A DNA stretch of 64,000 nucleotides from Neopestalotiopsis rosae (Eukaryota; Ascomycota; Sordariomycetes; Amphisphaeriales; Sporocadaceae). The translations under genes and the position numbers were made by a program. The stretch lies in contig JALGAS010000001.1 in assembly GCA_023078685.1 (NCBI GenBank), positions 2,604,001 through 2,668,000 on the forward strand, read 5' to 3'. Shown here piece after piece: positions 2,881-61,931 of this stretch (its first letter is position 1; each line of letters opens with the position of its first letter). Under the pieces are notes generated by a model. It made no database searches. It was not told the DNA's origin and saw only the letters and a list, made by a program, of their open reading frames with translations.

Positions 2881-3384
2881 TGTGCTCTGAGACAAACGGG
2901 ATGGCACGTGTCTGTAATGGCTAGCTCTGATAGCTCCTGTCTGGTGTCTGGGGTTGGGAGGCAACAGCAACTACAACGTTTGCCGGACCCGGATGCCTAC
3001 TTGTCTAATGGAACCTTCATACGGAAGGGATTCAAATGTGCGGTTGCCAACGCAACAAGCTTGGATCCTGTTTTGCACGAGAATCCCGAAATATGCGATG
3101 CCTACCGCTTTCTTAGGATGCGCGATGAGCCCGGCCGCGCAAACAAAGCACATCTTGTCGCCACGAGTCCTGGTTCGGCCACGGGTCTCATGCCTGCTCA
3201 GGACGTTTCTTCGCTGCGAACGAGATCAAGATTGCATTGTGCCATTTACTCCTCAAATATGATACAGAGCTCGCCGATAGCAGTCCTTTCCAAGTTACCT
3301 GGCATGGGTTCGCTCGAAACAGCAACCCTGAAGCCAAGGTCAGACTTCGACGTCGGGAGCAGGAGATCGACATAGATAGCATTT
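2881..3384 (+). pseudogene. Cytochrome P450, C-terminal fragment with a frameshift
   Basis: This is the last roughly 165 residues of a class II fungal cytochrome P450, a heme monooxygenase normally held in the ER membrane. The first frame (about 2960-3170) reads the segment before the heme loop, including FDAYRFLRMR-like residues (here CDAYRFLRMRDEPGRANKAH). The sequence then continues in another frame from about 3172 with the heme-ligand motif FGHGSHACSGRFF (FxxGxxxCxG, Cys ligand present), then NEIKIALCHLLLKYD, ending in a stop at about 3382-3384. The wording of the heme loop resembles P450s of terpenoid and indole-diterpene pathways, but substrate cannot be told. The I-helix and the N-terminal two thirds are absent. 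One frameshift near 3165-3175 and the truncation make it a pseudogene. Confidence 0.72.
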
Positions 3385-3896
3385 GAATCGATATCCTGCA
3401 TAAATACGATGAGAATGCGTTACGTTGTTTTACAATTCAAAGTCAAAGACGCCCTTTCTCAATCTGCTCGTTGTGTGTCTTATCTCTGTGAATGCCATTC
3501 CAGTGTGAAGTTCTTGTATCATAACGGGCATGAGCTCCACCTCATGTGGGATCCCGAATTTAGATATTTGAACTTTCTGCAGTTCAAACTCATACTCACC
3601 AACTTTTCAAACGAACCTTCAAGGGGGAAAACGGTCGTCTATCTACATCGTCTGGGCAGCGTTGCGTGCTGCCCCTTTGTACTCTGAAGTACTTTAATGC
3701 TCACAGACTGAGATGCATCACAACCAATCTGCAAACTAGGCAACTGACCAAAGTCGAAGAGGAATGGCTATTGGGAGGGAGTGAAAACGTTAAAGAAATA
3801 ATAATAAAGAAAAAAAAGCGGCGAGAACAGGCAAATTCCAAGCAAACCAATAGTATACATGGGGCAGCATATCAAACAACCAAATTCGGGAACTCC
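3385..3896. other. No gene seen
   Basis: AT-rich spacer downstream of the P450 fragment and of the 3' end of the patatin-like gene. It contains an AAATAATAATAAAGAAAAAAAAG run near 3795-3820 (shown split here because it is low complexity). No supported coding sequence. Confidence 0.35.
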
Positions 3897-6800
3897 TCAA
3901 GCTTCTGCACGCCGACGCTTTTGCCCCCGGCTTTCTTGCTCACTTGCATTGCTCCTCTTCTTGTGGTTTGGACTTCCAAAGTATGCCCCAAGATTTTGTT
4001 GCGTGAACAATTTTTCAAGCGTGAATGGAGAACCACTGATATGACATCCCTGGTCATCGTCTTCGCACAGTCGGATTGCAAATGGTTCGCTTCTATTGGC
4101 CACGGCGAACTTCACGTTCATAGTGAAAGGCGCCATATTATTCTCCGATGAGCCGGAGTTGCTCCTGCTAGAAATGATAATCGTTCTATTGCCGATTCGA
4201 AAGAGAGCTGACCGATCTATGAGCTGACAGATAAAGGCCCGCAGCTCCTTGTTTGACGCTCTCAGTCGACAAATTATACGGCCTGAGCATTCGATTTCAC
4301 CATTTCGGAACCGAGCACCGTGCAAGGGGTCCAGCTCGAATACAAAAAGCCCAGCCCGAATGCGGTGGACCAGTTTCGACAGCATCGGGGAATTCTGGAT
4401 AGTTTCGCGCGCGAGACGACCGATATCTTCCATCTCCGCAACACTATCCAGGGCGGGAGCACGTCCGTCGTACTCGACATCGAAACGAAACAAGACATTG
4501 CTGGGGTCATCTTTAGTATGGTCAACAAGCTGTTGCCACGCTCTCTTCGAATCACCGCTACTCCAAAACGCCCAATAGACGCGGGCAGGAATTGGATCCC
4601 GAAGAAAATGTCTTTCGTTCGTGGCCGGAGGGGGTTCGATGGCCTCGAAGAGCCCGTTCCCAAGGATACGACGAGTCCGGGTTCCGATGCATCGGGGAAC
4701 AGAGCTACTACTTCCCGTACAGCGATGGATGCAGGATTATTGAACATCAGACCACCGTCCTGAAATGTTCCTACGCCTGGAATGTGTTTCACCTTGAAAT
4801 AGCTACCAAACGTCAGCTTGACCGAAGACTCAGTGTGAATGTAATATCAAAACAACAGCGGTTCCTTTCACGTACTAAGGAGCAGCTGTACTACACCGCA
4901 CGCTACAAGGATATCAGCCTTTTACTTTTACTTTTTGTGATTGTGATTGCAATATCATCCTACATTTCCCACAGCGGGACTCGGCTTAGGCCGTTCTTCG
5001 GGTACAGCACCTGGTAGTCTTGAATGATATGTTAACATGGCGCCTCATAGAGAGATATAGGACGAAGAAGAGAAGCGATAGGAAGAAAGTGAAACAGATG
5101 AGAAGAAATGAAAAGAGACTGGGGGTTACCTGTATCATGCCGTCGCTCTCCAGCACCATTATAGCTTGTGAAGACACAGGCACGTGCGTCGCGGATGGTA
5201 GTCACCGTAATTCCAAGTTTGGTGCCTCGAGCTGCCCCGCTAGTACAATCCATGAGACTGCGTGTCCCCAAGACATCTTGCAAGATTGTTTCCAGGTTCT
5301 TGCTCGAGTATCGGCTGTCGGCCAGCAGGGAAGCCACCATCTGTAAGACGGCAGACAAGAACGGCAACTTCAACCACCACCACCGCGGCTGGAAAGCTAC
5401 ACGCGCGAACATATCGAAGTACTCGGTGCATTCCTCGATGCTCCAATCCAACGCATATAACACGGCGGCTATGATTGCACCAGAGCTGGTGCCATATATG
5501 AAGTCAAAATTGTGTTGCACCAGGGTTGGTAGCTGCATTCGGTCCTGAAGCGTCTGAAGAAATGCAAGTGGCGCTCGGCCCCGCGTTCCTCCACCATCAA
5601 TACTGAGGAGCCGGATGCTCGCCGTTGGCGGCTTGATACCAACGATTGCCCCGCTATTTTCTTGACCGCAGAGAGGACACGTTCTCACGACGAATGTTCA
5701 AGGCATATCGTCCTCGTTCTTTCTAAACACCTGAACACAGTCCTCACAAAGACTTGACTACAGGGCAAGCAATACTGCGGTCGTCGTCGCAAGCAACACA
5801 AACATAAGTCGTCGGATCGCATCTGAGCCCACTTATGCCGAAAGCAGTTCATCATGGTTCGGTGATGTGCAACAGCCGACATCGATCTCCTGTATTGTTT
5901 ATGTTGCTTGATCATTTCCTCCTCACAAGCTCTGTGAAGTTTGTGGTAATATCGTAGCCGATCGTTCTCTGCGGATCTCGTTGACTTTTCTGGAGTAACC
6001 GTTGGCAGGCATCATGATAGAGTACACGAAAGACTTGTTCAGGGCGGAAGGCTGTTCGTGTTAGTTACTCCTCCCGATATGCGTCTGACGAGAGACTTAC
6101 GATGCATGTTAGGCGGGTACTGGTCTAGAATGAAGCTGGAGATGATCATCGGAATTACGAATACCTCCACGTCTTCGGACGATTTTACCTCTTGGAGGAA
6201 AGCATGGAGATACGAACTCAGATAGGGAGAAACAGGATTCATCATTCTGGACATGCGTACAAGATCTAGAGGGCTCCTATCCACATTAACAAGCTCATCC
6301 ATTGCGTACTGAAGAAACTTGGAAAGGTGTTGTGCTGAGAAACGCTCTCCGTTTCTGGTACGATTGCGCTGCGCCGAAATGAGACACCTTGCCAGTTCGT
6401 TGTGAAGTCTTCTCTGTGGCGTCTCTTGGGATGATCTCCTTGTCTGCTGAGGTGGACGTGCAAGATCAAAGACATGATAGTCCTGAAACACTGGCGGTAT
6501 CATTCCTTTGGCGTCTGCTGTCAAGATCTCACGGATCGATACTTCCATACCGTCTTTAAGCTCGTCAAAGATCATGAATAGCCGCAATCCGCTTTGAGCA
6601 GTTGTTGCTCGACCATACTTGAGCCATGCCCGGAGCCGAGAGGCCAAGTGATTCAAGCCTCCAATGTCGTCCACAAAAATACATACGACATCGACGAATG
6701 GGAACAGCAAGCGGCAATATACGTGATCGATTATATCTACCGGCCTTTTCTCGCCGATGGTTGGTGTCACCTCGTGGTTTCGCGTCTCATAACATCTTGG

Positions 6801-7500
6801 TGTATTGTTCAACCTGCCCGGTTGCAATTTTGTGGACGCTTCAGCGTTGAAAATGAGGAGAGGTATTGACTTCCCATAAGGTCCCGAAAATTCAGAATGA
6901 TGGACTTGAGCCCGCCAGCCTGGGTGTCTTCTTTCAGAAGGACACTTTTGTATCCCAAATTCCAGCAGAGCATCATTCTTGTTTTCGTCTCCAATGAATA
7001 GGGCTAGACCAGGAGAAGTCTGATCTGGACAGTGAAGCTGGCATACAAGTTCCTCCAGTCTGTCCGTGACTTCAAGCTGAGAACCACATTCATGACGTAC
7101 AAGACGTAGCCAATCAGAATGCTTGCATTGAGCCATGGAGAGTATAGAAAGATGTAACAAGGTCTGATCACAATATTGCTTAGCCTCCCAATAGAATTTA
7201 TATAACCATGATTGCGGAAAACAAATCCTTATTATTCCATTATTTGACGTCAAATTTTCGTAGGATGGACGAGCGCAAATGGACAAACTCGTCAAATCCT
7301 TTGACCTTTTTAGGACTTCTAAAGACGGAAACAGCTTCTTGGACCGCCCTTGGTCTGGATTTTGAACATCCTATAATGGTCTTTGATCGTAGTTTGCTCC
7401 ATTACTTCCTTGGAACGGTACTTCAAGATCAACATATGGACAGCTTGAAGGGGGCTAAGCAAAACCGCACGATATGGGACGAGTCGACGTCTACAATTTG
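3897..7500 (-). pseudogene. plp: Patatin-like phospholipase (Starship plp type), multiply broken
   Basis: This is a large fungal patatin-like protein with its usual order of parts. First comes an N-terminal NTPase-like region (about 7500-6105, DVVCIFVDDIGGLNHLASRL). A GTAAGT-AG intron follows at about 6100-6050. Next is a Cys-rich zinc segment (CLCCLRRRPQY near 5810, CPLCGQ near 5670). The patatin domain then has the glycine-rich motif DGGGTRG (about 5605), the nucleophile elbow GTSSG (about 5490) and a Asp motif DGG (GTFQDGGLMFNN, near 4760). A C-terminal domain ends at 3897. The Ser/Asp dyad of lipid acyl hydrolysis is therefore present. Breaks: frameshifts near 7350-7400, 5755 and 4600-4640, a TGA near 5700 between the zinc segment halves, and a TAG in a short exon near 4890 at a normally Trp position. 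The next gene is divergent, the GMC oxidoreductase. plp is one of the four common Starship cargo families. Confidence 0.85.
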
Positions 7501-7620
7501 ACTTGAGTGGAGTATGCTTTACAACATCTTAGATCCGCAATGCACCCTACAGCGCGATCATGTCCGTGATTGGAAGCTTTGCAGCTAGAAACGGATCGTC
7601 TATGGGCTAAGAGATAACTC

Positions 7621-10033
7621 ATGTGGAGAGATCAGCCTCTGCTTTCATACGTGTCAGGAGGTTACATACAGCTTCCGATCCACTATACTGTTCTATTCTC
7701 CTTAATCTCCTTGCTCAGAAATGCTGTTCATCAATTGCCACCTTTTTCTTTTGATATTCTTTCTCCACGGTTATCGTGGGGTAGATTGCTTGACTCCACA
7801 ACAGATGTCTCCCGTCTGCCCTCGACCTATGACTATATTGTAGTTGGTGCTGGGCCGGCCGGCTTGGTCGTGGCAAACCGTTTGACTGAGAACAGAGATG
7901 GTGAATATGCCTCAAAGCACAGATCAGAGGAAGCGGAGGAAGCGTCCTAAGAGTTGAATTTGGCAAATACTAATGTTCATCTTTTAGTAACGGTCCTACT
8001 ACTTGAAGCAGGCCAGATGTGTGATGATCGTTTGCAAATGGCACATTCGATAGCTAACTCCTGCCTAGGGACTCTCGAGAAGAGGCGGTCGTTCTTCCAT
8101 CCAGGATCGGTGCCACCGTAGGGTCAAAATATGACTGGAACATCAGCAAGGTTGCGCAGAATTATCTTGATAATCAGCCAAGGAGGCTCAGCCAAGGCCA
8201 TGTGGTGGGTGGTGGGACGGTCCTCAATGGTATGATATGGACACGTGGAACCCGTGTTGACTACGACACGTGGAGAGATCTCGGCAATGATGGCTGGGGA
8301 TGGGACGATATGATTCCTTATTTCCAAAAGGTTGACTTTCTATTGCTGTTGCTTTACTTTTGCGGTTTGTCGCAGTTGAAAGGAACTAATAGCTCATATC
8401 ATGCACGGCAGGTCGAATCCTTCACCGATAATTTAGGTGATTATGGATGGTCAAGTGCATCCAGCGACAAAAGCGGTTACGCGTACGATTCCGACGGGGC
8501 TGTGAAGCTTGCGTACCCCAACTATATATACAGTCAATTCAGTGAGGAGAAACACGTCCTTTCTCATCCAAACCGACGCCAAAAGAGACCAGCTGCTAAT
8601 CATATTGACAGGCAACTTCATCGCGGCCAGCGAAGAGCTAGGCATCAACTACAAGAATAACCTATCGTCCGGCGCTAATGTCGGAATAACCGTTCCCCCA
8701 TTTAGCCTGTCGTCGTCAAATCAGTCTCGCTACGATGCTAGGACTGCTTATTTGAAGGGATCCATAAACAGACGCAACCTTTACCTTGCCACGGAGAGGA
8801 TTGTCACGCGGCTGCTTTTCAACGAGCAGGCCAACAATTCGGATGTCGCGATAGCAGGAGTTGCGGTCAGTAGCATCCGTTCGCTCTTGACATTGTTCCC
8901 CTGATGGAGCGCTGGCGCTGAAATTTTCGTTTCTATGTCTCTTTTAGTGCGTGGGTCGAAACGACAGTGACTTAACTTACATTGCGAAAGCCCGCCGAGA
9001 AGTGATCTTGACTGCTGGCGCCATCTGGAGTCCAGCACTCTTGCAGGTTTCGGGCATTGGCCCTTCAGCCACTCTGGGAAGGCTGGGAATTCCGTTGATA
9101 GTTGACTCACTAGGCGTGGGAAACAACCTTCAAGACCATGCCATGATTGACCCGTCCTACAAATGTATGCCATCCCCGGACTACCGCTGGTGCTTTCACA
9201 GCTAATAACTTGGATTGACAATTCCAATAGATAGCAGTTCCACACTGTTGACCACCCGAAATATGACAGGCCAGAGACTCAGGCTTGCGAGGGATTTGTA
9301 TTATGACAACAGAACGGGGCCCCTCACTGCAACACTCGTGGAGGCAATTTGCTACTTGCCGATGACTCGTCTCACTAGCTCATGGCCATCTATCTTACAA
9401 GATTTGTCAACTGATAATACCAGCGTCTACTTACCATCTGACTACACAGACGAGCTACGCAGAGGATACGAAGCTCAGTATTCTACAATTCTGCAGTTGT
9501 TGAGTGCGCCGACCCAAGGTGCTATCGAAGTTATGGCAGACTCGATTGGAACAATCCAAGTCGCCCAACAGTATCCGCTCTCTCGTGGCTACGTCCATCC
9601 AAAATCTAGCGACATTCTCGATGGCGTTGAGGTTGACCCTCGCTACGGAGCACATCCGTTTGATCTAGATACCCTGTCGATGGGGTTACAATGGAACCAA
9701 CAACTCGTAACAACATCTGCCATGATGAACTTGAACCCAGTCGTAGACGAAAACCTTATGTCCGACGACCAAGTAGTATTGAAAGATCTTGTCAGAAGCC
9801 AAACTGGCACTGGTTTCCACACGTGCGGCACGCTGGCTATGTTGCCTCGTGAGCTCGGAGGGGTTGTCGGTACAGATCTGAAGGTATATGGGATTCAGAA
9901 TCTGCGTGTCGTTGACTCCAGTATTATCCCAGTGATATCAAGTGCACACCTTCAGTCTGTGGTGTACACGGTAGCGGAGAAGGTCTGTTCCTTGATCGAA
10001 AACAGAAAGATGTCGTTTACTAAAACCACTTGA
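7621..10033 (+). CDS. GMC-family FAD oxidoreductase (aryl-alcohol/choline oxidase-like), seven exons, intact
   Basis: Flavin-dependent alcohol oxidase or dehydrogenase of the glucose-methanol-choline family. My exon model is 7621-7900, 7988-8018, 8069-8330, 8376-8541, 8612-8865, 8948-9164 and 9231-10033. All junctions are GT-AG and phases agree, giving 670 residues. Visible marks are the Rossmann FAD motif YIVVGAGPAGLVVANRL, then TVLLLEAG, GMC signature 1 region (VVGGGTVLNGMIWTRG), signature 2 (GAIWSPALLQVSGIGPS), NNLQDH, and the C-terminal catalytic pair: His in GFHTCGTLAM and His in SAHLQ. The protein is slightly long for the family. The extra is an N-terminal segment before the FAD fold whose start (7621) is the least certain part. 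It could act in secondary metabolism or lignocellulose/aromatic alcohol oxidation, and substrate is unknown. A 76-bp piece of exon 7 recurs at 18491. Confidence 0.88.
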
Positions 10034-10935
10034 AAGGGTGCTGACTTGATAAAGTCGCAAAGATAATATTCAGTAACAGGCGAAAGTCTTTCCATTGGGC
10101 CAGACTTGACGCTTCAAGAAGAGCCAAGGACTCTGACGGGTAAATTGATTGCGCGAAAAAAGAAACATCGTTACAATAGGATATCGTTGTGTCAATAATA
10201 TGTTATGGACCAGGCGCTTATGGTAATGGATACCACTCTATGTATTGTTCTTAATGCATTGCATTAGATCTGTGAATACTTTCAAAGCTTTGTTGGCGGC
10301 TGAGGACATTAGTGGTTTGCTGCCTTGGATGTGATCGATTACTAGGTTGGTGATGCGAGCATTTAGGTTGGACTTCCAATTCGAGGTTGGAACGATACTC
10401 CGATATGAGTGTAAGAAAGCGGGTTACTTTATCTCTTGTGTTCTAATACAGACGAGCAATAGAACATCACTCTTATCAATCAACGCGTCATGCGCCGAGA
10501 GCTATTGTAGTTGCCTTCTCGGTAGAGATGTAGCCACGAGTCGAATGCTTGTTGCCAATGCGATCATGTACTGGATACTACGGTTCATGAGCGCTCTCAT
10601 CAAAGGACAATATACGGCACTAAAGAACAAAGTATTCCTGATTAACAGTGCTTCACGCCTGTTGCTCCTCTGTTTCTTGCATGTTCCAACGCTGCTTATA
10701 TGCCGAAGATGATCCTTGCCTTCCCACACTCACGGTTTATGGATGTGAGCAGCGGTGCCACAAACCATGATCACACGCATAAGTAGAGGTATATTCTTGC
10801 CTAGAAGGCTCCATGAGTAAGATCAAGAAGTAGATACTCCCGTTGATGGAAGGGGCAACATGCACCGCCTACTAAGCCGTCTGAGCTCGTGAGTATGGAA
10901 TGCGACGAGGTGGGTCAGCAAATGTCTTCAGCGAA
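10034..10935. other. No gene seen
   Basis: Spacer between the GMC gene and the DUF3723 fragment. Overlapping open frames on both strands at 10347-10729 have no recognisable motif. AT-rich stretch at 10150-10270 is typical of a 3' flank. Confidence 0.35.
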
Positions 10936-11460
10936 GGTTGTGCACACTGACAACAAGTATAGGAGCTTCTGAGTTACTTGGATCATATCCACACAATTTG
11001 GAAAAAGATCTTTGGCGAAAGCACTATGGCTAGGCAAAGTACGGACAACGACACTACGCGGGCTCTGGAACTGATGTGTCCGAAGTATTCGCCCGCAGAC
11101 AGGCGAATTGTACGGCTTCTTCTCGAAAAAGGTCCAGATCTTTCAAGGTATCGATCTTTCGGAGCGCGAGTACCTTTGGAAAAACCTCATGACAGTAGAC
11201 TGCATCATATCCTCCCCTTTTTCGCTCTTCGAGGATGCAAAGTATCTTCTTCCCTGTGCCAGAAACATAAAGTATGTCATCGGCAGCGAAAAGCGAGATG
11301 ACAATATACCGAGCTTTACAGCGAAAATTACCGCAACAAGAGGGTTTTCAGGAAAATTCGTTGTTTGCATTCACGCAAGGGATATGGCGTCATCACGTTG
11401 AGCCAAAATTCAGCTCATAAGGCAGTGCAAATTGGGAGTCATAGCCGGCATAGCTATTAT
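10936..11460 (+). pseudogene. DUF3723 (Starship d37-type) fragment 1
   Basis: The reading frame runs ELLSYLDHIHTIW..., LELMCPKYSPADRRIVRLLL, then switches frame near 11130 to QIFQGIDLSEREYLWKNL and FSLFEDAKYLLPCARNIKY, and switches again near 11300 to TIYRALQRKL. The order 'SYLDHVHxIW / GQIF / IPSLFTFFEDxKYLxPCA / TIYxAL' is how I know the DUF3723 family, a protein of unknown function common in Starship transposons (d37). At least two frameshifts and loss of both ends make it a pseudogene. Family assignment rests on recall of conserved blocks rather than a profile search. Two other pieces of the family, from a different part of the protein, lie at 30900 (+) and 47060 (-). Confidence 0.62.
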
Positions 11461-13485: not shown

Positions 13486-13489
13486 GGCA

Positions 13490-16317: not shown

Positions 16318-17015
16318 ATGGATCTGTTATCGTTGTCATACATTCCTTTTGCTTTGAGCACAGCATCTTCTTTGGTTCGAATCAAGCTTGCTCATACTCA
16401 CTCATCCGCAAACACAAGACAGACCGGCGCACCACAGCTCTATGCAGCACGGCATCGTAGTTGCTTTCTGATCATCTTCGTCGGCCAGATTGGTTCCTCG
16501 ATACTGCTCAACACTGCATCCCTCGCGTTCGCGATCCACACGCATCAAATGCTTCTTCTGTTCAGCTCATTGCTACTGACAAGTATGGTCCGGCAGGTAA
16601 GTACGATTGAGAGTGTAGTTTACGTGTTGCTAACTTGACGCAGACGGTTTGGGAAGCTTACAAGTGGCACTCGAACCAATATGCTTATAACCCGTTGCTC
16701 CTCGCTACTCACACCATAATCTGCTGTTCCGCATTTCTTGCAGCGATTGTAATGCCGGAGACGCAGACTCCAAGCGTTCTCCTCGCAACTAGCCTATCTT
16801 TGTTTCGCATGGTGATGGCGCTTGTTTCGGTGCTGTTTGTATATGAGAATCGTCTCTCGTCTCTTTTTATTTTTCAAAGGCTTTCGACAATTTGTCATTA
16901 CTCTCTTCGTCCATACTACACGTGGAAGTTACGTGTTTTTATGCCTTCTTGCCTTCTTGTAATGGGACATTTCAACCTCTGCCAAGTTTTTGAATATTTT
17001 CCGGATCTCCGCTGA
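16318..17015 (+). CDS. Small multi-pass membrane protein, two exons
   Basis: Exon 1 is 16318-16596 and exon 2 is 16644-17015, with a 47-nt intron (GTAAGT...GACGCAG). The frame is kept, giving 216 residues. About five hydrophobic segments are visible (IPFALSTASSLV, FLIIFVGQIGSSILL, MLLLFSSLLL, LLLATHTIICCSAFLAAIV, VLLATSLSLFRMVMALVSVLFV). The layout resembles the TMD0 region at the N-terminus of fungal ABCC transporters, but no ATPase domain follows, so it could be a truncated transporter or an independent membrane protein. Its 3' end overlaps the 3' end of the HMG-box gene by 87 bp in convergent orientation. Confidence 0.5.
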
Positions 17016-17981
17016 CTCCATCCGCCAAGACGCGCTGATAACCCTTGTTATCATTTTCTGATCCAGGCCTGGAAACAACCTGACAGTGTCACTCCGGAAA
17101 GCTTTTCTGTAGAGAAAAAAGCAATTCAAAGGCCGCTTTATTGTCCCTTGGCTGTTGACTGCAATGGCTGATTCGTCGTATCGCGGCCGATGAACATACA
17201 TATGAATACCAGGAAAGTTGTATCGGTTGGAGAGCACGCTCAACGGCGTCGGAATGCGTGGCTCATCATGAATGAATAGTTCTTGATGCTGCCAAGGGTG
17301 AATATAGTCTGGACTCATAGGTGTTGTTTGGCCCAAAGTATCCGGATTATGGTTACTGCATGCTGCTCGAAGGTCGATCATTTCGTAGGGATGAAGATGA
17401 TTTCCAGGTGGCACATAGAGTCCTTGTGGTCCAAATCCCTAGCCAAAGCAAACGGTCTCAGAATCTGGTGACTTAAAAGACCTCAGAAAAGACCAAGTCT
17501 ACTTACTTTAAATTCTTTGGCGTCATATGATGATGGGTCAAAGAAACCATGAGTGACAATGGCATCGAAACCATTGTGCACATCAACACGGAAATCCGAG
17601 TCAAACTATGACACCAGCAAAGGAACTGGTCCTGGGCGGACGAATCGAAAACTTACAGCGAATGGCACTTGACATCCTAATTGAACTGGGTCGATGATTG
17701 ATGTTGGGGTCTGGATATGTGCTGCCGCTGCGGCAATATTGCCGCTGACGTTTCGCACAGCGCAGTCGTTATCTGATAGCAGATCCCTCACTGTTAATCC
17801 GTCGTGGCTGATCCACGGCCGCTTCGATGCTGCATGGTGGACCTTTCTGTATATGGTGTTGGTCTATGGTGAGAATCAATATCGATGTTCTTGGCCCAGA
17901 TGCGTAAGGGCACTTGGAGGTATTGCTTGCTTTATACGCAGCAACAGCAGCCACTCCGCCCCAATAGTCCAGAACAGACAT
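16929..17981 (-). CDS. HMG-box protein, mating-type (MAT HMG) style, four exons, intact
   Basis: Exons on the minus strand are 17981-17914, 17846-17657, 17605-17507 and 17438-16929. Every intron is GT-AG and phases agree, giving 288 residues. An in-frame ATG also exists at 18035. The HMG-box is near the C-terminus: KRPLNCFFLYRKAFRS, then FPGLDQKMITRVISASW, then EIRKIFKNLAEVEMSHY. This follows the MAT_HMG pattern (R-P-N-xF-LYRK ... PGL-N-xIS-xxW), with Leu-Asn in place of Pro-Asn. MAT_HMG proteins bind DNA and set sexual identity. The usual MAT neighbours (APN2, SLA2) are absent, and there is no intron inside the box, so this is more likely a MAT-like HMG paralog than the idiomorph itself. The N-terminal 190 residues match nothing I know. 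Confidence 0.7.
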
Positions 17982-18035
17982 CCTTCCGAGATACGATGAT
18001 AGAATACAGTACTGTAGAACATGATTACATTTCAC

Positions 18036-21853: not shown

Positions 21854-21869
21854 GGCAACTGCGATGTGC

Positions 21870-22104
21870 TCTGCGTTGTGGAGCCGCCTATGACCACGTT
21901 AAAGCGCAAAACCCCGTTGCAGCTCAACTCCTTTGGTGGTGGGCGTATTTCGATAACGAAGATATATGGTTCGAACTTTTCCAATCCCCTGATGATGGCT
22001 GTCCAGCGTGGATGCAAGAATTGACTAATGAGATTAACTTCAATGGATCGATGGGCATCCTGCATAGCTATGGATTTATGGTGTCACGGGCTATGGCCCG
22101 GTAA
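21870..22104 (+). pseudogene. NLR (NB-ARC) fragment fused to the GH47 remnant
   Basis: The frame reads YDHVKAQNPVAAQLLWWWAY then FDNEDIWFELF and INFNGSMGILHSYG. This is the winged-helix segment that follows the NB-ARC domain in fungal NB-ARC/TPR receptors, where one expects a 'SYxxVxxQNPxAAxLLxLWAYFDNxDxWFELL' pattern. No P-loop or repeats are attached. It ends at a stop at about 22102-22104. It is a different part of the protein from the NLR at 28617-30175, so the two may be pieces of similar but separate receptors. Confidence 0.68.
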
Positions 22105-30829: not shown

Positions 30830-30899
30830 ACCTACAATTTTTGTATCACAAATTACTGGAAAATTTCTATTCGAAGGAGATTTCTACGATTACTAAATT

Positions 30900-47059: not shown

Positions 47060-47290
47060 TATCAGTTAATATTTCTTGTTGCTCTAATTATCATTGAGGC
47101 TAGGCCATCCGCACCGATGTCGCATTTCCACGCCATCTCTCCAAACATCAGTCTCATCGGGCTGTTTATGATGCCGTTCAGCGAACTGGATGACCTTAGC
47201 GATCTGATCTGGATAATACACGAAAGAATTACCATTTTTTCGAGATGCCGTAGGGCTGATTGTAGACCATGGTATTCGAAGCATTAGATC
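47060..47290 (-). pseudogene. DUF3723 (d37-type) fragment 3
   Basis: The frame reads DQIAKVIQFAERHHKQPDET, DVWRDGVEMRHRCGWPSLNDN then stop, and the DNA carries on as similar to fragment 2 (shared AGAGCAACAAGAAATAT). It is a close relative of 31165-31310 in opposite orientation, so it is one more piece of the same DUF3723 region. Confidence 0.6.
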
Positions 47291-50509: not shown

Positions 50510-51272
50510 ATGGAGCCTACTAGAACCGTGAAGAACCCAGGCAAGAAACGAAAGTTCCGGGGACAAGTTCTTCCGGATGTCAAAACCAATCTCCCTCCCA
50601 AGTAAGTTTCGGAAGCCATCATTTAGAATCTACTTCTAAGCCCACTCATGCAGAATTAAAGACAAGACAGAAGACGAGAGACAACAGCGTCGCGTTGAGC
50701 GCATCTTGCGTAACCGTCGCTCAGCAAAATTAACTCGCGAGCGCAAAAAGAAAGAATTTGATGAGCTAGTCGAGAAGAACAAGAAACTTGAGCTTGAATT
50801 GAACCACGCTCAGACGCAGATGGTCTTACTGCTCCATGAGTCAAACGCATTTCGATGTGACTCAGGCGCGATTGCGAAGAGATACACAATCCTCGACACT
50901 ATTCAGCCAAGTCTGCTTATCCTTTCGCCGCAATCTGATACTGATGAAGGCTCGGATTATCACCTGCCTCCTCTTGGCAATCATGAAATGATAATCGAGA
51001 ACGATGGTATCAGCAACTCGGCCTCTACCTCGGAGATTGCCATCATTCGCGATGAACCCATCTTGGCACCCGCTGATACCACCTTTTATTCTTCCTCTGA
51101 GACACAATACCCAGCAGTGATGCTGTGCGACCTGCAGTATCCATTAGTAGAACTACCAAGATTGTCTAGCCCGATTTACGGTACATTTGATGCCGTTGGT
51201 CTACTTCCGGGTCCAAGCATTTTCGATGGGTTTCTCAATGATTACGACACTTTATTATTGCAACATCAATAG
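50510..51272 (+). CDS. Hac1/HacA-type bZIP factor of the unfolded protein response
   Basis: Transcription factor that, after Ire1-dependent mRNA splicing, activates ER chaperone genes. Exon 1 is 50510-50601, a normal intron runs 50602-50653 (GTAAGT...CATGCAG), exon 2 ends at 51272: 236 residues without further splicing. The N-terminal KKRKFRGQVLPDVKTNLPPK matches the Hac1 leader. The basic region is RRVERILRNRRSAKLTRERK (N-x7-R kept) followed by a leucine zipper. Near the C-terminus AVMLCDLQ is the conserved spot of the non-conventional intron. It is short for the family (usually 350-450 residues), and the basic region has KLT where most Hac1 proteins have QSS, so it may be a diverged paralog. 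Confidence 0.82.
51118..51137 (+). promoter_or_regulatory. Predicted 20-nt Ire1-spliced (non-GT-AG) intron of the Hac1-like mRNA
   Basis: The bases before the first site are CCAGCAG and those ending the intron are CCTGCAG, matching the CxGCAG-type loops cut by Ire1. The interval is exactly 20 nt, as in filamentous fungi. Removing it shifts the frame to a stop at 51167-51169, giving a 195-residue protein instead of 236. This is the expected mode of control: unspliced and spliced mRNAs encode different C-termini. Confidence 0.72.
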
Positions 51273-52218
51273 TTTTGAACGGTCGATCACGACTCGGTAG
51301 ATCAATAGAATATATAGTGTACCGATTGGCATGGGCATCAATTTGAGCATTGTAAGACGAAAGCGCGTCCTGAGAAGATTGTGTACCATTTCAAGTTGTG
51401 TATACATTTCAACTCTTTCTGTACTATAGAAGGGAACGTGACCACTAATGCGAAGAAGTGATCAGCAGACCGGACCATGTATAAAAGGTAGCCTCAGAAG
51501 TTACCATGCTATAGAGGCAGTGAGGCAGGCTCGAGATTTCTGAAATGCCCGTCGATTAACAGACAACTTTGAGCAGTCGTGCCATTGTATTCGGCTTGTC
51601 TTGTCCGTAAATTGAAGGTAGCTACAGGTCAAAGGCTCTGGGTAGACAATAAGCTCCATTTTCTTTGCAGTCTGGCAACTATGAGCCCAGGCCAGACCCT
51701 CGTGGGCCGGAACCTGGCTGAGAACGGATTCACGCAATACAATTCTGTGAAACCACATCTTTCTTCTCGGTCAGGCGGTTTGCCGCGACCAGGCCAGCTG
51801 CCCAGTACCAACTATGATATAGTCACAGGCTGAGTCCAAACGGGAGATATCTGATGTAAGGTCAGAAACCTACCCCACGATAGCCGTGGCAGAAAGAGTA
51901 TTCAGAAATGAAGGTGGCAATTGACAAACAGCACTTTTGAGCACTGGAGAATTATATCATGGAGTTCCCGCTCAGCAACCTTCAAACGGTCGGGTTCCGA
52001 GTTGTCAAGGCAGAACAAAAGAAGATCGAGGCTGGCGAGGGAATCGGTGAGATTGGTGTCAATATTCTACATTAACTCCAAAGGCCAGTCACGTAAGGCC
52101 CTTCCATAACAGTTCGCACGAGTTGTAATTTCTTAAAATTAATATAACTTATACAAAGCATCAGAATACATCAATATCTTCGTCTTGAGATTGATCTCGC
52201 CATATTGTAGCAGACTGA
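51273..52218. other. No gene seen
   Basis: 3' flank of the Hac1-like gene and 3' flank of the subtilase. Small frames near 51500-51830 carry no motif. Confidence 0.4.
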
Positions 52219-54961
52219 TTAACTTGCATAAATAATGGCAAATCCGACCGACTCGGCAAAATCATACTCGGATTCATCACTGGCATTGCCAAAGGTGCGC
52301 AGAGCTGAAATCTTGAACTTGTATGTGCCAGCCGGGGCGTAGCTACCGTCGGCCAGGGTACCGTTCCATGCAGCCGACCAGACGTCGCGCGAGACAAACT
52401 CAATTGGAGAACCGAGGATATCGCCCAGATTGGTGCTAGTGCTGTCAATGACCTCGTACTTGTCAAGAGGCGAGCCAAAGGCCATGTCGGAAACAGCGAC
52501 GGGCTCAATAACCGTGGTCGTGTTCGCGTTGTTCTTGTACAGAACAAAGCTGGAATTACCGCCAGTAATCGGAGCGAGAGTAGAGTCGGTGGACAGGGCG
52601 AGGTAGCCGTTGCGGAGTACAGTGGTGTTGTGGAGGCTGCCAACAATACCCTGGAAAGGAATTGAGAGGCTGTCACCTTTAGTGCCGTTGAGGTGAATGT
52701 ATCCAGAGTAGACGGACAACCTGGAAGCATCCGCGGTAGGAGGGATGACAGTGACAGTAATGACGACATCGGCGCCGGCGGCAATGGTAACCTTGCCCTC
52801 ATCAAAGGCGACAGTGGCAACATCGTCAGTGAATTCGATACCGGGGAAGATGTCGGGTTGGATCAAGGTGGAAAAGGTGTATCCAGTAGCAGCACTGATG
52901 GAGCTGAAGTCATAAGTGACATCCTCAGATCCCGGGTTGGTGATTGTGAAGTTGAGCGTGCTGACAAAGTTGTCGGTATCATTGAAGGCAAGGTAGGCGA
53001 CACTGGGAGTAATAGTGGCGCAAGCAGCATCGAAAGCCTGAACAAGACCGGCACCCTACTGGGCGACGGGAGTGAGACTGTCATAGATACCACTCCCGTC
53101 ATTGAGGTTGGCTGGAGCAGCCGTAGCAGCTAACAGAGCTTCGATTACGGCGGGGTCAAAGGTGCCGCGAACCTCTGCAACGAGAGCAATAACGGCAGCA
53201 ATAAGCGGGGAGGCCATGGAAGTTCCAGAAATTACGGCGTAAGAGCCAAGAGTCTGGGACCAGGTGGACAAAATGTTGCCACCAGGAGATCCGACTTGGG
53301 GCTTGACGTCGCCTTCAAAAGTTGGGCCCCAAGAGGTGGAGGTGCTAAGGTATCCTCCAGTGACGGTATTTTGGGTCGTGGCCAAGTAAACGGGGGCAGT
53401 CTCAGGGTCCTCAAAATCGAGCTCAACCTCAAATCTAGCGGCGAGCTCATTGACCCAGATTACTCCCTGGTCAGCAGTAACCATGCCGACTGCAAGAATA
53501 CCGTCGACGGTGTCGACAGCAGCAGAAGTTGCGCCAGCAAGATTGTTGTAGAATAGAATGTGCTTGGCGCCATAGGCAGCAGCATTGGTGGCCTTTTGGA
53601 CAAAGGTGCAGGTTCCACGGCGGATGAGGACAATGTAACCAGACAGATCGGGGGTGTCGGTAGGGTAAGCATCACATCCATCGGCAGCGTCGCTGGTGTT
53701 GAAGGAAGCAGTCCAGAGAGGCAGCTTCACACCGTCCCAGGCACTTGGCTGTCCAGCAGCGTAACCAAAATTCTCACCGAATCCTCCGTCAATGGTGTAA
53801 TTGGAGACGGTGAGCAGAGCAGGTGACTCGATATTGTCAAACGAGGCAACGGCGGTCACCTTTTTACCATTGGCTGCGGTGCTGGCGTAAAAGAGACCAT
53901 AGTCACCACTGTTACCGGCCGCGACAGTGCAAGGAACACCTTGCTCACCAATACGAGAGACAACGACAGCCCAGGGATCCTCGCTCCATCCAGAAGATCT
54001 ACCAATGGAGGTGGTGATTGTTTGACTGCCCTCGTCGTAAGCACGTAGGTAAGCCTCAATGAGGATATCATTGCTCGTTCTGCCATTACAACCAAAGACA
54101 CGGTAAGCCCCCAGGGTGACACCAGGAGCGGCACCAGTAAAGCCGAGCTCGTTGGGCTGAGCGGCAATAATACCGGCAACGTGAGAACCGTGACCGGTGC
54201 ATCCATCATAGGGGCTGTAAAGTCAACACATAATGATATAGACAAAGACAAGTAGTTTCATCTACTTACTCGTCATCTGAACTGGAGTGTTGTAACCAGT
54301 GTAGTCATCACCAACGAGATCGTAGCCGTAGCTGACCAGGTAACCGGGGCCAAAACGACCCCCGAGGGCAAGGTGAGGGTAGTCAACCTGAAAGGTCAAT
54401 TGGGCTCATTCAATCGACTTTTCATACAACTCATACCCGTGTCAATGACACCGATCTTGATGCCCTCACTGACGATACCCTGGGCACGAAGCTTGTTGAC
54501 CTGGGTCATGACGTGGGTCGAAAAGATGTCGGTAGTGCTATCGACTTGTCGCTTTCTTAAAAAGTCGGCCTCTGGGGTTCCCGTCCAGACAACCTCGGTC
54601 TCTGGCAGAGAGTAGACCCGGTTTGGCCAGATCTCCTTGACACTACGCAAGGATTGGAGATTCTTGGCATCTCTGTCCGCTGTGAAAAGATCATGAAACT
54701 TGATGACGGCGCCCTTGAAGAGCGATGATTCGTAAGTATTGGTCGTATCGCTTATAGACATGGCATGGCTAAAAAAGCTTTCCGAGTCCTGGCGTAGTTA
54801 GAATGAGTATCAAAAGTCATAATGAAGAATGGACTGACCTCAGTCTCTTGAAATTCAACAATATAAGACCCAGGAACAACATTGTCAGCTTGACGAGAAG
54901 CCGCTGCACAGACAGCTCCGGCACTCGCCAAGAGTGACAAGGCCAGATTGCTACGGACCAT
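52219..54961 (-). pseudogene. Subtilisin-like serine protease (S8), extracellular type, with lesions
   Basis: Secreted endopeptidase. ATG 54961 begins a signal peptide (SNLALSLLASAGAVCAAA). An intron follows the pro-region start (about 54843-54787). The triad is present: Asp in IGVIDTG (about 54440), His in GHGSHVAGI (about 54190), Ser in GTSMASP (about 53215). A PA-type insert (GYIVLIRRGTCTFV) and a C-terminal Fn3-like half complete the fungal Vpr/minor-protease layout. Lesions: a one-base loss in a T run near 54775, a one-base loss near 54275 just before an intron, and a TAG near 53059 at a Gln position (AQ-stop-GAGLVQAF). Outside these the frames are excellent, so inactivation is recent, or the indels are assembly errors. 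Confidence 0.85.
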
Positions 54962-54979
54962 GATGGCAATAATTCTCAC

Positions 54980-56410
54980 ACTAATTCAGTAAACAACTAG
55001 GACGATGAACATCTAAGGTCTCAACTCGTGCCATTTGAAAGCAGATTGCACCATTATTTGTAGGTAATCAAGGTCACGAATATCTAGCTTATTCTGTACT
55101 AGTACAGAACGTATCTAGGGTTCCAAACCATGGTATTGGACGAATAGCCTGACGCTACCTACTGGCAACCCTGCTCTTCCCTGCTGTGGTGTTATTGGCC
55201 CCTAAAAAGCACTGCATCATGGGTGCATCCCACTAGTATTCTTGAACGGTACTTGGACTTCGAAATATATAGCTGAGTTGGACAAAAACTGAACTATACC
55301 AGACGTGCACCTTCTTGAATGACATATGTAGAGTTATTGTCTGCTCAATTGAGTCTTGTTGTTCCTGGAAACTGGTCGGCCAAGGTATAGGTTGTGATAC
55401 AGTCAGAGGAGCATAGAATAACTGTTTGGGGGTTCACGATCTTTTGAGAAATGAGAGCTTATGGTGGTCAAGTAATTGTTATAATTTGTCTTGTTCTTTC
55501 TAAGTTCACAAAAGAAAAAGGGAGTGTATGGACCTATTTATACTAAATACCGTTAGTCATCGTACCATGGAACACTTGGTATAGGTCCCTGTGTTCTATT
55601 ATCCATGGAGCACATGGAACGGCCTTCTGGGTTCACCTGGCATTCATCACCTGATCTTCACATAGGTACATCGGCTTCCATTAAGAACCTCTCGAATCAT
55701 ATCCGGTTGACCATTTCTCGCCTCATCACCAATTCCGGTATTACAATCCGAGAAGTAGCTTCTTCGGCTGGACGAAATTTGTTCAGACTGGTAAACTGAT
55801 CTGAGCCTCTAGTGTGTATCTGAACTTCCCTCCATCCAGTAGGTATCTAGATGTCACCGATGATGATGGAAAAAGTCCCCTGGTTCTTCTGTCGCTGTCT
55901 CCAAATGGCTCTTCGGAGCAGCGATGCGTAATGATGAAGCTCTTCATTGACTTCCTCGGGACGCTTGGAAGACTTGGAAAACAATACCAGCGATGTGCTT
56001 CGTATTACCACGACGTACGCAACATAGGCTTCTCTGATGGCTTGAATACTTTGTTTGACCCCTTGGCCCTTTTGGAAAAGAAAAAACCAAGCATTGTACA
56101 AGGAACCAGCGCAAAATGTACAGTGGGCGCGAATTTCGACTGAATTTGCACAATTGTTTGACCGTTGCTTATGCGATATCATATCGGAAGATTGGATCGT
56201 CTGGAATGATAGTTTTTATTTACAATGAGCTATTCCTCGCCCGATAACAGTTGTGGTGGAGCTGCAACCAACTACCCCCTTAGGTAGGTTGATGGTATCG
56301 GGCCAAAAGAAAAACGCAGTGGGTCGGATAGTTCGTCTGGGAGATACAACCTTACGTGCAGATTAGCCGACCGGAAAACGGCTGTGTGCTTTGAAATTAG
56401 TACCTAGCCC

Positions 56411-58453: not shown

Positions 58454-58621
58454 TCTATAAGTATAGTTATTTGTTATAGCGCTTTATCAATAGCAAGCAT
58501 GAATCTAGAATGAATGGATATAGCACACAAAAGTCGGACATTGATTTAAACGTTAGAGTATATATTACCGATTGCGTGCTCTGATACTGATTGCCACCAC
58601 GATCTTCGGATCTTCGTCTCC

Positions 58622-59326
58622 TCAGCATCTGGGAAACATTATCCATCCCGAAGCTACTTTCGATAATAATCCCGTCGAATTGTCTCCCGTAAGAACGCGG
58701 CCACAATGCTCTACGTGCTCAAGTTGGACTTGACCCGTAATTTCCAGTTTGGTGCTTGCATTTTCCATGAAAACCGATTTATGGAGTCGTTTCCAGGTAC
58801 CCATGCAGTGGTCCCGATGCTGTTTAAGATCGTAATAGAATAGGCCCAATTCTCCACGAAGCACTTCCGCGTGAGGAATCTCATCGATCAAGTCTGGATC
58901 TCGGAACCACTTCCAACCGATTACCGTCTCCTCATCGAGGTCTCTATCATAACAGTCCCGCGGGACCCAGACGTAGTTGGCGAGATTGAGAACACAGTCA
59001 CTTTCCCGTGCTTCGTCGGCCGTATGACCACATCGGTGACTTGGGACATAGTCCTGCTCAAGTATAGGAGTGCCTGGAGAGACTTGCGAAACTGTTGCCG
59101 GTTTACAGCTATTCGAAGGCCGTGACGTTATGATGGATGCAGCCAACCACACCATGATACAGGTCGCCACCGCACATGAGAGATAGATTAGACTCCGGGG
59201 TAACTCTCGCCAGAATCGCTTTTCCAATGTAGTTGAGTCTTGCCTGGTGGGATCATCCATCAAAGCAGTTTCGTCTTCAGCATTGTAAAATGACTGGGAA
59301 TCTGCAAAACTCGTTTTGACATCCAT
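58622..59326 (-). CDS. Membrane protein with paired HxxHC motifs (DUF3328/UstYa-related)
   Basis: A 234-residue open frame from ATG 59326. One membrane anchor at residues 42-65 (LIYLSCAVATCIMVWLAAS). The lumenal part has CGHTADEARESDC, ANYVWVPRDCYD, GWKWFRDPDL, then QHRDHCMGTWKRLH and LEHVEHC. The two HxxHC motifs (HRDHC, HVEHC) and the 'CGxTxxEAxxxxCxFxLxxxxWxPxxCYD' block are those of a large fungal family near UstYa. It is often close to biosynthetic genes. The last 20 residues after HCGRVL do not fit the family (usual end 'xxYPxC'), so a late frameshift is possible. Confidence 0.68.
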   Translation of the reverse strand: MDVKTSFADSQSFYNAEDETALMDDPTRQDSTTLEKRFWRELPRSLIYLSCAVATCIMVWLAASIITSRPSNSCKPATVSQVSPGTPILEQDYVPSHRCGHTADEARESDCVLNLANYVWVPRDCYDRDLDEETVIGWKWFRDPDLIDEIPHAEVLRGELGLFYYDLKQHRDHCMGTWKRLHKSVFMENASTKLEITGQVQLEHVEHCGRVLTGDNSTGLLSKVASGWIMFPRC

Positions 59327-61169
59327 GACAGTTTGGTGCTCCAGGTAGTGTTGGTAGTCGACTTCCTCGATGTAGTAGTCGGAATTCGACTCTTGGCATA
59401 TAGAACGGCGTATAGAATGTATAAAGATGTTTTTATGACATCTGAAGAGCCCATTACAGTCGAGTGAGGACTAAACGAGTTTATAGAAGAATGCGAGCAC
59501 TGTCAATGTCTATCTCCTGTGGAAGCCCAGAAGTTCGGAAGCTGGATTTCCTTCTGCCGCCCCGCGGTTGTGACGAACAGGTTACGGTGAGCAGGCCTCT
59601 ACTATTACCGAATCCCGTCAGAACGCCGGTCTTAAGGTAGATCGAAAACTAGTGCAAGAACAAGCAGAATACCCTGAGATCATGAGGGGAAGCATTATTC
59701 CGGATAGCCGGTTAGTTTCGGAATGATCACTTCCCCACATGCTCGGTAAACCCGATAGTAAGATGATATAGTGTTGGATACTGACATGACGTACTGTAAA
59801 TTTTACTCGGTCAGAATAATCCAACAAATCAAAGTAATCGAGCTCTGCCGACTCATGTTACCGTCACCTTCTCGATAGATGCTTTTTTGAACTTGCGAAG
59901 TTTCATCAACAAGGCAGCCTCCAGTATGGGCCTACTGAACCCTGGCACGGATGTTCCACCTGGCCCCGCAGGCAGTGTCAAGTACAACGAGCTATTGGAC
60001 TTTGGCTGTAACGACTTGGATTCCCACGCAAGTGAAGAAGTGTTGGCTCCTTCACGCACTATTTCGAAGCAGCTCCGACGGAAGCGTCTATCACAAAAGT
60101 GCCCATGGCTTGCTGAGGATGGGATTAAGCTTCGGGAATACAAGGCTAGAGGATGAACAGACCATCGCATTGGTATTGCTTTACGGAGGACGCCAGACGC
60201 GGTCAAGAAACAATGGAGAAAGCAAGATTCGGAGAAACGATCAGGGATGTAAATAACAGATCGTTCGGCTACGTTATCGAAATATGGAAGACATTTCATG
60301 CGATGTATGCGACACGACAAACGACTACTAGTTATACTTTTGAAGACATTCTCAATGCTACGCAGTTATACCTGGTTGCAATTGGACTAACTGCTGAGAA
60401 GTTGTTATATCATGAAGGGAAAGTTCTCATGCCAAGGCACTCCACATCTCTGTCGGCTTTCAATCTATATGATCAATTATCAAGCTTGATTGGATACTCG
60501 CTGTAGAAACGGCATGAAAATACCCCTCATTAGATTTGTGTCTTGAAAGGAAAACCATACCTACGCATATGGACTTGTTCTAGAGCTGATACGATATGAT
60601 CTGGGGGCGAGTCGGCGAACTTCTGGCACGTCTTGTCCATTGTGCCCTCATCATCGCCGAATCCATCGGTCGAATCCCGTAGCAGTTCAATATAGAAGTG
60701 TACCGTGCCGATCAGTTTTGCCGTATGACTCTGAGAGTTCCGTTTGGGAGGCACTGCGTAGTACATAATGCGATAGCCATCGTCACCGAGGGCGGGGATA
60801 TCTCCTGCTGGGCTCTCAGGACGCCTGCTTCCTCTAAGAGGTCATTTTTTGAAAATGCGATTTGACATCGACCACGGTGTATGACCAAGCCCCAGCATGG
60901 GCCTGGGTGCATTACTGTCAGAGCATATTCTCTGCTCTTCAAGATGCTCAGCCTCGAACCCAGCGATCAGGATATTTGTTTTTGAGGACTCTGAGCACGG
61001 TCAAGTATGTTGCCTCAATTGCAAAAATTGACCACCAAGCAGCACACCATACTCGACCAGCAACTTCATTTAGTTTACTCATGCCTTCTCGAACACATGT
61101 ATGTTTCAGATTTGTTTGATCAAGTCCTTTCCAACATCCTACTCAAATGTTTAATTTCTGCGAGGCATG
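59327..61169. other. Unassigned; a few open frames without identity
   Basis: The plus-strand frames 59887-60156 and 60153-60506 overlap by 4 bases and might be one broken gene, but match nothing I know. The minus-strand frame 60530-60766 is also unassigned. Confidence 0.25.
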
Positions 61170-61469
61170 TTCAACGTCCGTAGGACTTGGAGACGACCGA
61201 TGCGCTCTATATATTCGGTTTTGGGGCGGGCGATGACAATAAAAGCCAGCATGCCCGCAGGCGAGAACATCATCAGTGCCCTGACGAAAGCGAAGCGACG
61301 GTCCTTAATCATTTCCTCAGCCTTGGCGTTGTTGTCTGCAGAGCTTCTTAAAACTCCTCCCTCCTCCATTCGTCCAGTCCTTCAGCTCGTCGAAGGCCGC
61401 GTCAGCGTCTTTTGTGAGTTTATGCTTGGTGGAACAAAACTCGCCAACGTGGGATAGGAGATACTGCAT

Positions 61470-61931
61470 GACGTCAGACGAGCAGCACTCGAGGTGCTTG
61501 AGAGCCAAACTACGCTTTCGGAAAAGCATCTTCAAGCTGTTGCAGCATATCTTGGGGACAATGACTCGAACATTAAATAAGCAGCACTCGAGATACTGCA
61601 GAGTCGACCGATCCTTTCAGAAGAGCATCTCTAAGCTGTTGCAGCAAGGCTCGGGGACGATGACTGGTACATTAGACGAGCAGCACTTAATGTATTGTTA
61701 TGCTTACTGCCCAAAGCCAAAACATGTGTGGGAATTGTTCGACCTCTATTCAAAGTCATGTTGGAGGTCGCTTTCAAGGAGCATGTTACTTGGCAACTGA
61801 CACATGATACTTTGTGTACATCCACAGCACTACAAGATTACCAAGCAAACGGCTCTCGCGTCGTGCTCACCGAGGCGATCAAGGAAGTGCAGCATAACCT
61901 GTACCCGGGGCTGTGGGAAATTCAACGTTGA
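61470..61931 (+). pseudogene. HEAT-repeat C-terminus of an NLR, with stop codons
   Basis: The frame holds two full 33-residue HEAT-type repeats at 61482-61580 and 61581-61679 and the start of a third at 61680. Each has the pattern AALExLxSxxxLSExHLxAVAAxLGDxD. The tail (VAFKEHVTWQLTHD ... LTEAIKEVQ) resembles the end of fungal NACHT/NB-ARC proteins with near-identical HEAT repeats. In-frame TAA codons lie at 61578-61580 and 61632-61634, both explainable by C-to-T and G-to-A change from CGA and CAA. The NTPase domain is missing. This is a third kind of NLR debris in the window. Confidence 0.72.
61482..61679 (+). repeat. Two tandem 99-bp HEAT-coding units
   Basis: Unit starts share GCAGCACTCGAG. 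Spacing is exactly 99 bp. A third start is at 61680. Confidence 0.85.

Follow-up and report, generated by a model that had tools for sequence, protein, structure and literature searches.

We analyzed a 64,000-nucleotide stretch of Neopestalotiopsis rosae DNA (the window), C1:2,604,001-2,668,000, where C1 is contig JALGAS010000001.1 of assembly GCA_023078685.1. The window is a patch of broken, duplicated genes within a 1.35-Mb compartment that has a twin on another contig, C17. It holds the four accessory gene families of Starships, the giant transposons whose captain is a DUF3435 gene. We consider it fairly probable that the window is the interior of a 1.352-Mb block that site-specific recombination placed in a tRNA-Gly(GCC) gene, with a tyrosine-recombinase-type gene joining DUF3435 to an SH3 domain as the most likely agent. 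The genome is 53.8 Mb in 17 contigs, of which C1 is 8.33 Mb and C17 is 3.27 Mb.

A 16-bp core of a tRNA-Gly gene at both ends of the block

The position of the window and the features at the block ends are as follows.

Window 1-64,000 (no strand): interior of the block C1:1,437,471-2,789,215, both ends of which lie outside the window.
C1:1,437,466-1,437,492 (+): tRNA-Gly 5' stub at the left end of the block; 27 bp, 24 of them identical to the tRNA-Gly 5' end, in the same orientation.
C1:2,785,871-2,788,653 (-): DUF3435-SH3 gene, nearest of all genes to the right end of the block and transcribed toward its interior; ~560 bp separate it from the right core.
C1:2,789,211-2,789,281 (+): tRNA-Gly(GCC) gene at the right junction.

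The two ends carry identical 16-bp direct repeats, at C1:1,437,471 and 2,789,215, with 1,351,744 bp between the cores. The core, TAGTGGTTTAGTGGTA, is nucleotides 5-20 of the tRNA gene. When the genome was searched with it, 17 exact matches and none with one mismatch were obtained, compared with 2 and 2 for a reversed control pattern. Fifteen of the exact matches are tRNA-Gly loci (three were checked by ARAGORN), and the remaining two are strays at C1:1,437,471 and C17:3,124,709.

To the right of the window we read 200 kb of C1, in which the gene at the right junction is the only tRNA gene found. Core genes begin past it. Nine of the ten open reading frames (ORFs) tested beyond the junction reach their Pfam cut-off, e.g. 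NAD-glutamate dehydrogenase, kynureninase, NOG1, eIF2B and RRG7. On the left, C1:1,437,001-1,442,000 was chosen for its proximity to a DUF3723 gene at C1:1,443.7 kb, the compartment marker farthest to the left. This choice preceded knowledge of the tRNA match, and the stub lies 6 kb outside the marker. Short tandem repeats (7-residue units, ~21 bp) at C1:1440814-1441361, 3.3 kb inside the left end, are open in several frames. The use of tRNA genes as a map of core DNA was dropped (the best 63 of 1703 candidates were scored).

The right-end tRNA gene begins with GCACTAG and ends with CTAATGC, leaving a C/A mismatch in the acceptor stem. The left stub reads GCATTAG and pairs exactly with this CTAATGC, which fits an original gene GCATTAG...CTAATGC and an insert bringing GCACTAG. 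The tRNA-Gly genes on C3 and C12 read GCACTAG...CTAGTGC. No other locus is 100% identical to the right-end gene, and 6 of 13 match the C3 gene at 100%; the remaining 12 tRNA-Gly loci are known by percent identities only.

In the mechanism that we propose, a recombinase would exchange strands within the 16-bp core. The element would consist of the captain end, GCAC, the core and the left end, and the target tRNA gene of GCAT, the core and the rest. Exchange within the core would then yield exactly both junctions observed. The tRNA 5' end borne by the element would leave the target tRNA whole, as a hybrid beside the captain, and the original 5' part would remain as the stub at the far end.

A DUF3435-SH3 gene as the candidate captain

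The C-terminal SH3 domain of the DUF3435-SH3 gene scored 47.9 bits (cut-off 30). A Xylaria protein, with a DUF3435 match of its own of 36.9 bits, aligns with both halves of the gene (55% and 47%), and another relative also carries the SH3 end. The start of the gene (~C1:2,788,653) and its frames were set by eye; short introns could join the frames without stops. The R-x-GEL motif and the C-terminal Tyr are kept, and the His of both relatives is Gln here; we take these to be catalytic residues. Judged from its sequence, the candidate captain is probably intact. PDB sequence searches found no relative and returned two chance zinc-finger rows. From its position, orientation and family we infer that this protein is the recombinase of the block.

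The earlier note on this DNA, made from the window sequence alone, saw no DUF3435 captain there and suggested that it might lie outside. Both statements agree with our results. None of the 20 genome-wide DUF3435 profile rows falls in the window, and the DUF3435-SH3 gene closes the surrounding block 118-121 kb past the right edge of the window.

A second copy of the left end and possible right-end remnants

At C17:3,124,709, the stray core is followed by the sequence of the C1 left end (97% over 139 bp, 201 bases compared). Inside the core, 109 of 112 positions match the C1 left end, which was reached by 0 of 300 shuffles. The outer flanks of the C17 and C1 strays do not match in register, and their best match (21/27) was reached by 12 of 300 shuffles. 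Because the same inner sequence is joined to unrelated flanks, the left end is precise and is present at two places. We rejected C17:3,124,709 as a circle or tandem junction, its outer flank being unlike the captain end (a score at least as high was seen in 281 of 300 shuffles).

DNA upstream of the C3 tRNA-Gly gene matches the captain end at 152 of 205 positions, and DNA upstream of the C12 tRNA-Gly gene at 52 of 64 (0 of 300 shuffles each). By sequence, these matches are possible remnants of further right ends.

Four Starship accessory families in the window

Patatin, NLR, DUF3723 and ferric reductase genes are all present in the window, mostly broken or partial. Three of the families are represented by the following fragments; the patatin pieces belong to a larger unit that is listed further below.

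10,884-11,324 (+): DUF3723 fragment, 94.8% identical to the C17:3,215.9-kb gene.
30,897-31,538 (+): DUF3723 fragment with two internal stop codons, 83.0% identical to the same C17 gene.
47,069-47,235 (-): DUF3723 fragment, 79% identical to the same C17 gene, without a Pfam match of its own.
28,405-30,179 (-): NLR fragment in several frames, with the P-loop part at 29,770-30,177.
61,635-61,928 (+): C-terminal piece of an NLR gene; it shares 40% identity with an ORF at C1:2,673,721-2,675,679, 6 kb beyond the window, that bears a NACHT domain.
34,451-37,492 (-): ferric reductase copy, with coding pieces 35,492-36,370 and 36,374-36,844 and one stop codon between them.

The earlier note had named all four families as Starship cargo, and each of them (for NLR, the P-loop part) passes its Pfam cut-off in the window. 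The link of these families to Starships holds. The patatin profile matches 5,035-5,697 (-) with 54 bits (cut-off 27.7), in an exon open for 221 amino acids compared with 344 in the C17 copy. Profile searches confirmed DUF3723 and ferric reductase. DUF3723 matches were found at 10,963-11,298 (+), 11,075-11,398 (+) and 30,897-31,139 (+) with 42, 37.4 and 46.4 bits (cut-off 22), and the whole-genome DUF3723 profile search also recovers the matches in the window. In the ferric reductase, Ferric_reduct matches 36,374-36,844 (-) with 68.2 bits, and 35,492-36,370 (-) contains NAD_binding_6 (56 bits) and FAD_binding_8 (27.6 bits), all by Pfam. This gene is an 84% inverted copy of C1:2,758,479-2,761,506, ~120 kb away, where the frame is open for 451 amino acids. 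The NLR P-loop part at 29,770-30,177 (-) matches AAA_22 with 34.6 bits (cut-off 27), and its NB-ARC and NACHT matches are below the cut-off. A paralogue of this NLR at C1:1,793,956 has 94% DNA identity and an 823-amino-acid open frame.

Further claims for single fragments fared differently. The third DUF3723, near 47.07 kb, is borne out by its identity to a real DUF3723 gene on C17, and the NLR fragment near 61.5 kb by its likeness to the NACHT-bearing ORF. An NLR fragment at 21,870, however, finds no support from Pfam or from a BLAST comparison with ORFs in the adjoining 264 kb; it adjoins a copy of a GH47 gene.

The two plus-strand DUF3723 fragments cover complementary stretches of the profile (179-292 and 338-508), as would one gene split by a 19.6-kb insertion. 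This idea was ruled out by their different identities to the same C17 gene (94.8% vs 83.0%). The spread of identities over all three pieces (94.8%, 83.0% and 79.0%) implies arrival or decay at different times. The nearest named protein relatives are from Xylaria for the DUF3435-SH3 gene (47%), Diaporthe for the ferric reductase (49%) and Truncatella for DUF3723 (42%, vs one further relative at 96%).

An accessory compartment on C1 and C17

The compartment comprises C1:1.437-2.789 Mb and C17 from 1.422 Mb, 3.2 Mb in total or 6% of the genome. For each family, genome-wide profile rows were reduced to loci (DUF3435, 20 to 10; DUF3723, 11 to 7; patatin, 24 to 23; ferric reductase, 18 to 16; NLR, 47 to 42). 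The compartment holds 9 of the 10 DUF3435 loci, 6 of the 7 DUF3723 loci, 13 of the 23 patatin loci and 28 of the 42 NLR loci. Ferric reductases are not enriched in it (2 of 16 loci). Binomial values for the compartment are descriptive only, because its limits were drawn with the hits in view. When 64-kb windows were moved in 2-kb steps through the genome-wide profile hits, the only one uniting all four families was at this place.

Paralogues were searched with three DNA queries covering window bases 1-60,000, with 60,001-64,000 outside the queries. Of the 217 rows among the matches listed, the C1 block accounts for 122 and the part of C17 past 1.42 Mb for 90. The other 5 lie outside both; 2 of them are on C1 to the right of the block, and C1 to its left has none. 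One of the 5 rows outside both compartments is a 96% match of window 1,406-2,997 to C3:243727-245327.

The interior of the block holds a second DUF3435 gene, at C1:2,104,630, as well as retroelement and pogo-type pieces. On C17, three near-identical DUF3435 genes lie at 1423720, 1810443 and 3203774, and their common sequence begins ~200 bp ahead of the ATG. In two of the three, this start reads TTACCATGTCCA, which fits the TTAC(N7)A quoted for Hephaestus-family Starships in an excerpt of PMC12153272. Beside the DUF3435 gene at the C17 compartment edge, C17:1417501-1421500 has a G+C of 0.23-0.28 and is either centromere-like or an AT-rich island.

Other genes and copies in the window and the block

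Other features of the window are the following.

3,721-10,192 (no strand): broken copy of a patatin-GMC gene pair, with patatin pieces at 3,900-7,370 (-) and a GMC oxidoreductase at 8,058-10,030 (+).
16,850-20,000 (no strand): second amplified unit, with an HMG-box ORF at 16,932-17,438 (-); at least 7 rows in C1 and C17 start at 16,850.
20,506-21,895 (+): truncated GH47 mannosidase, an 85% copy of C12:3,670,511.
25,874-28,331 (-): LINE-type retroelement piece with zinc knuckle and endonuclease.
52,126-55,063 (-): interrupted subtilase, an 83% copy of C4:771,712-774,649.

The patatin-GMC pair occurs at 17 or more other places, 2 complete (94% and 93%) and 15 partial (19 rows merged by hand). 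We rejected this unit as a transposon: 14 of 18 end or junction pieces were aligned with the window and C17 copies, and the ends vary. All 8 further 5' pieces extend beyond the end of the window copy. Because of the variable ends and these longer 5' pieces, we take the unit to be an amplified gene pair. In the second unit, other copies hold ~2.8 kb extra at 16,850-16,852, where the flanking matches overlap by 3 bp; the window copy has no insert. Window 17,451-18,965 is 100% identical to C1:2582157-2583671 over 1,515 bp, ~40 kb apart, and is a very recent copy.

A fungal transcription-factor gene has five copies (67-83%) in 120 kb. Three of them are in the window (1-771, 30,172-30,830 and 38,945-40,370), and one of these stands immediately ahead of a DUF3723 fragment. 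Elsewhere in the block, inverted duplications pair C1:2706879-2708442 with 2770456-2772017 (99%, 1.56 kb) and C1:2747509-2749895 with 2767051-2769437 (100%, 2.39 kb). Such identities indicate that copying within the block is recent. Repeat-induced point mutation was rejected as the cause of decay, the index thresholds being reached in 0 of 53 bins of 5 kb.

The GMC oxidoreductase and the subtilase mentioned in the earlier note are indeed present, and a Rhodanese match is also among the Pfam results for the window. For the proposed Hac1-like gene there is a bZIP match at 50,640-51,269, but it is below the cut-off. The proposed UstYa-like ORFs are likewise backed only in part: 44,388-45,635 scores below the cut-off and 58,625-59,470 has no match, but each contains two HxxHC motifs, which we take to be the UstYa motif. 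At C1:2709082-2709822 (+), a 247-amino-acid ORF without a Pfam match opens with a signal-like sequence and contains perfect repeats of 78 bp (NIITSEPEAAAKR units with KR at the end). We presume that it resembles the precursor of an ustiloxin-type ribosomally synthesized and post-translationally modified peptide; the UstYa-like HxxHC ORFs lie in the window.

Origin of the block

The interior of the block is composite: patatin-GMC, NLR, DUF3723, ferric reductase and transcription-factor genes recur in it as scattered and inverted copies. Within the window, the four Starship families are represented by broken members of such amplified sets. The block may have entered as one piece rather than grown in place. 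The second DUF3435 gene and the mixed ages of the copies, however, point to growth by nested insertion and duplication.

Several points weigh against the proposed insertion. The whole case comes from the genome of one strain. The block is about 2 times the ~700 kb quoted for Starships. The DUF3435 match of the candidate captain is weak (32.1 bits, cut-off 25.8), and the AlphaFold model of its Xylaria relative, from a 5-row alignment, is unusable (mean pLDDT 38.6). The hybrid-tRNA argument rests on one base per end. Terminal inverted repeats were not found; 114, 96 and 176 of 200 shuffles, respectively, did as well as the best ungapped matches of 10, 14 and 18 nucleotides. The step in G+C across C1:2,789 kb is small (0.465 to 0.509 in adjacent 5-kb bins), and the bins overlap elsewhere. 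The left reading starts at C1:1,437,001, and core gene content was shown on the right flank only. The paralogue rows are from the best 39 of 217, 39 of 190 and 32 of 220 first-look candidates. Finally, C17:1.42-3.12 Mb, outside the C17 element end, holds the same families (86 of the 90 C17 rows among the matches listed), so this element alone does not account for the content.

Taken as a whole, the block could be a single 1.35-Mb Starship-class element that entered tRNA-Gly through the 16-bp core, brought its own tRNA 5' end so that a hybrid tRNA survives, and is led by an SH3-tailed captain. We put this forward tentatively. The likelihoods that we attach to the different explanations are not exclusive, and growth in place overlaps with insertion of the block.

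Such growth is the subject of another explanation, in which a small tRNA-Gly element carrying little beyond its captain inserted first and the block then grew by nested insertions, duplications and translocation. It draws on the gene at C1:2,104,630, on the mixed ages and on recent copies of 99-100% identity. We found no point against it, and it differs from the proposed insertion solely in how the block grew. We regard it as somewhat unlikely.

It is unlikely that the C1 block and the C17 arm are duplication-rich DNA of the accessory-chromosome type, joined to core chromosomes by rearrangement through short tRNA-Gly homology, with DUF3435 genes as passengers. This would account for C17:1.42-3.12 Mb, which has the same content outside any end found, and for the many fragments that are copies of mixed age and orientation, some of them derived from genes outside the compartment (C4, C12). 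The low G+C at C17:1.4175-1.4215 Mb (0.23-0.28) would likewise suit a centromere-like or AT-rich boundary. However, rearrangement alone predicts no identical, precise end at the 16-bp core at two places with unrelated flanks, and the opposite end is occupied, exactly at its edge, by a DUF3435 gene oriented as in Starships.

The earlier note had read the window itself as a decayed Starship island; it would then be one old element of ordinary size, its captain lost or nearby. The broken or partial copies and the four accessory families within 64 kb, found only here in the genome, speak for this. A single element confined to the window would show one cargo set, one age and edges. Instead, the copies differ in age and origin: the DUF3723 pieces are of different ages, patatin-GMC is copied elsewhere and the ferric reductase is an inverted copy of a gene nearby. 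The window has no DUF3435 gene, and no edge was noticed in it or in the 121 kb to the right junction, although no systematic search for edges was made. We therefore consider this reading improbable. Least probable of all is a chance meeting of common fungal families in an ordinary chromosome. In its favour, NLR and patatin genes abound and the compartment shows no excess of ferric reductases. Against it, DUF3723 is a rare family: of its 7 loci the compartment contains 6, two of these in the window. The same 6% of the genome (limits set with the hits in view) accounts for 9 of 10 DUF3435 and 28 of 42 NLR loci, and 212 of 217 paralogue rows, among the matches listed, map to the C1 block or to C17 past 1.42 Mb.

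Comparison with known systems

Assuming insertion at the tRNA-Gly gene, the block can be compared with three kinds of system. It shares with Starships an inward-reading DUF3435 first gene, direct end repeats, the four accessory families and a second copy of an end elsewhere. Excerpts of PMC12506042 give NLR, PLP, FRE and DUF3723 as Starship accessory families and describe the direct repeats as variable. The block differs from Starships in size, being 1.35 Mb compared with 15 kb to ~700 kb in an excerpt of PMC12134995 (a quoted range rather than a definition). Its repeats are 16 bp and no terminal inverted repeats were found, whereas the part of PMC12153272 consulted reports, for 20 A. fumigatus Starships, 19 with direct repeats (2-12 bp) and 18 with terminal inverted repeats. 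The SH3 tail of its captain is a further difference. The same part of PMC12153272 names 5S rDNA as a Starship target and describes insertions of the Enterprise family (Osiris) as fragmenting that 5S copy. The block resembles these in site-specific insertion in a small RNA gene and in direct repeats longer than usual, but its target is a tRNA-Gly gene rebuilt as a hybrid. In the literature searched, we found no report of tRNA-targeting Starships or of SH3 captains; the portion of PMC13373834 consulted mentions tRNA in a sense other than Starship targeting.

Among accessory compartments, the adaptive genomic regions of Verticillium, in the part of PMC12289983 consulted, are also rich in repeats and duplications and hold Starship parts. 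The C1 compartment differs in its ends, which lie at a tRNA gene and are bounded by repeats.

A third comparison is with bacterial genomic islands in tRNA genes. Such islands have a tyrosine recombinase at one end and use a tRNA core as the attachment site, and the tRNA is restored by element sequence. The block would work in the same way. It is unrelated to them as a family, and in the block it is the 5' part that would be restored, in a fungal host and with more than 1 Mb of DNA.

Implications

If the proposed insertion is true, a fungal chromosome can gain more than 1 Mb from a tyrosine-recombinase element at a tRNA gene, and that gene is not destroyed. The tRNA gene would join 5S rDNA as a Starship target. 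A specific insertion mechanism would stand behind the accessory compartment, and its ends would be open to checking through the 16-bp core and through the empty site and circle junction that are predicted. As a single element, the block would be a eukaryotic counterpart of the bacterial tRNA-borne genomic islands, larger than the Starships in the cited papers.

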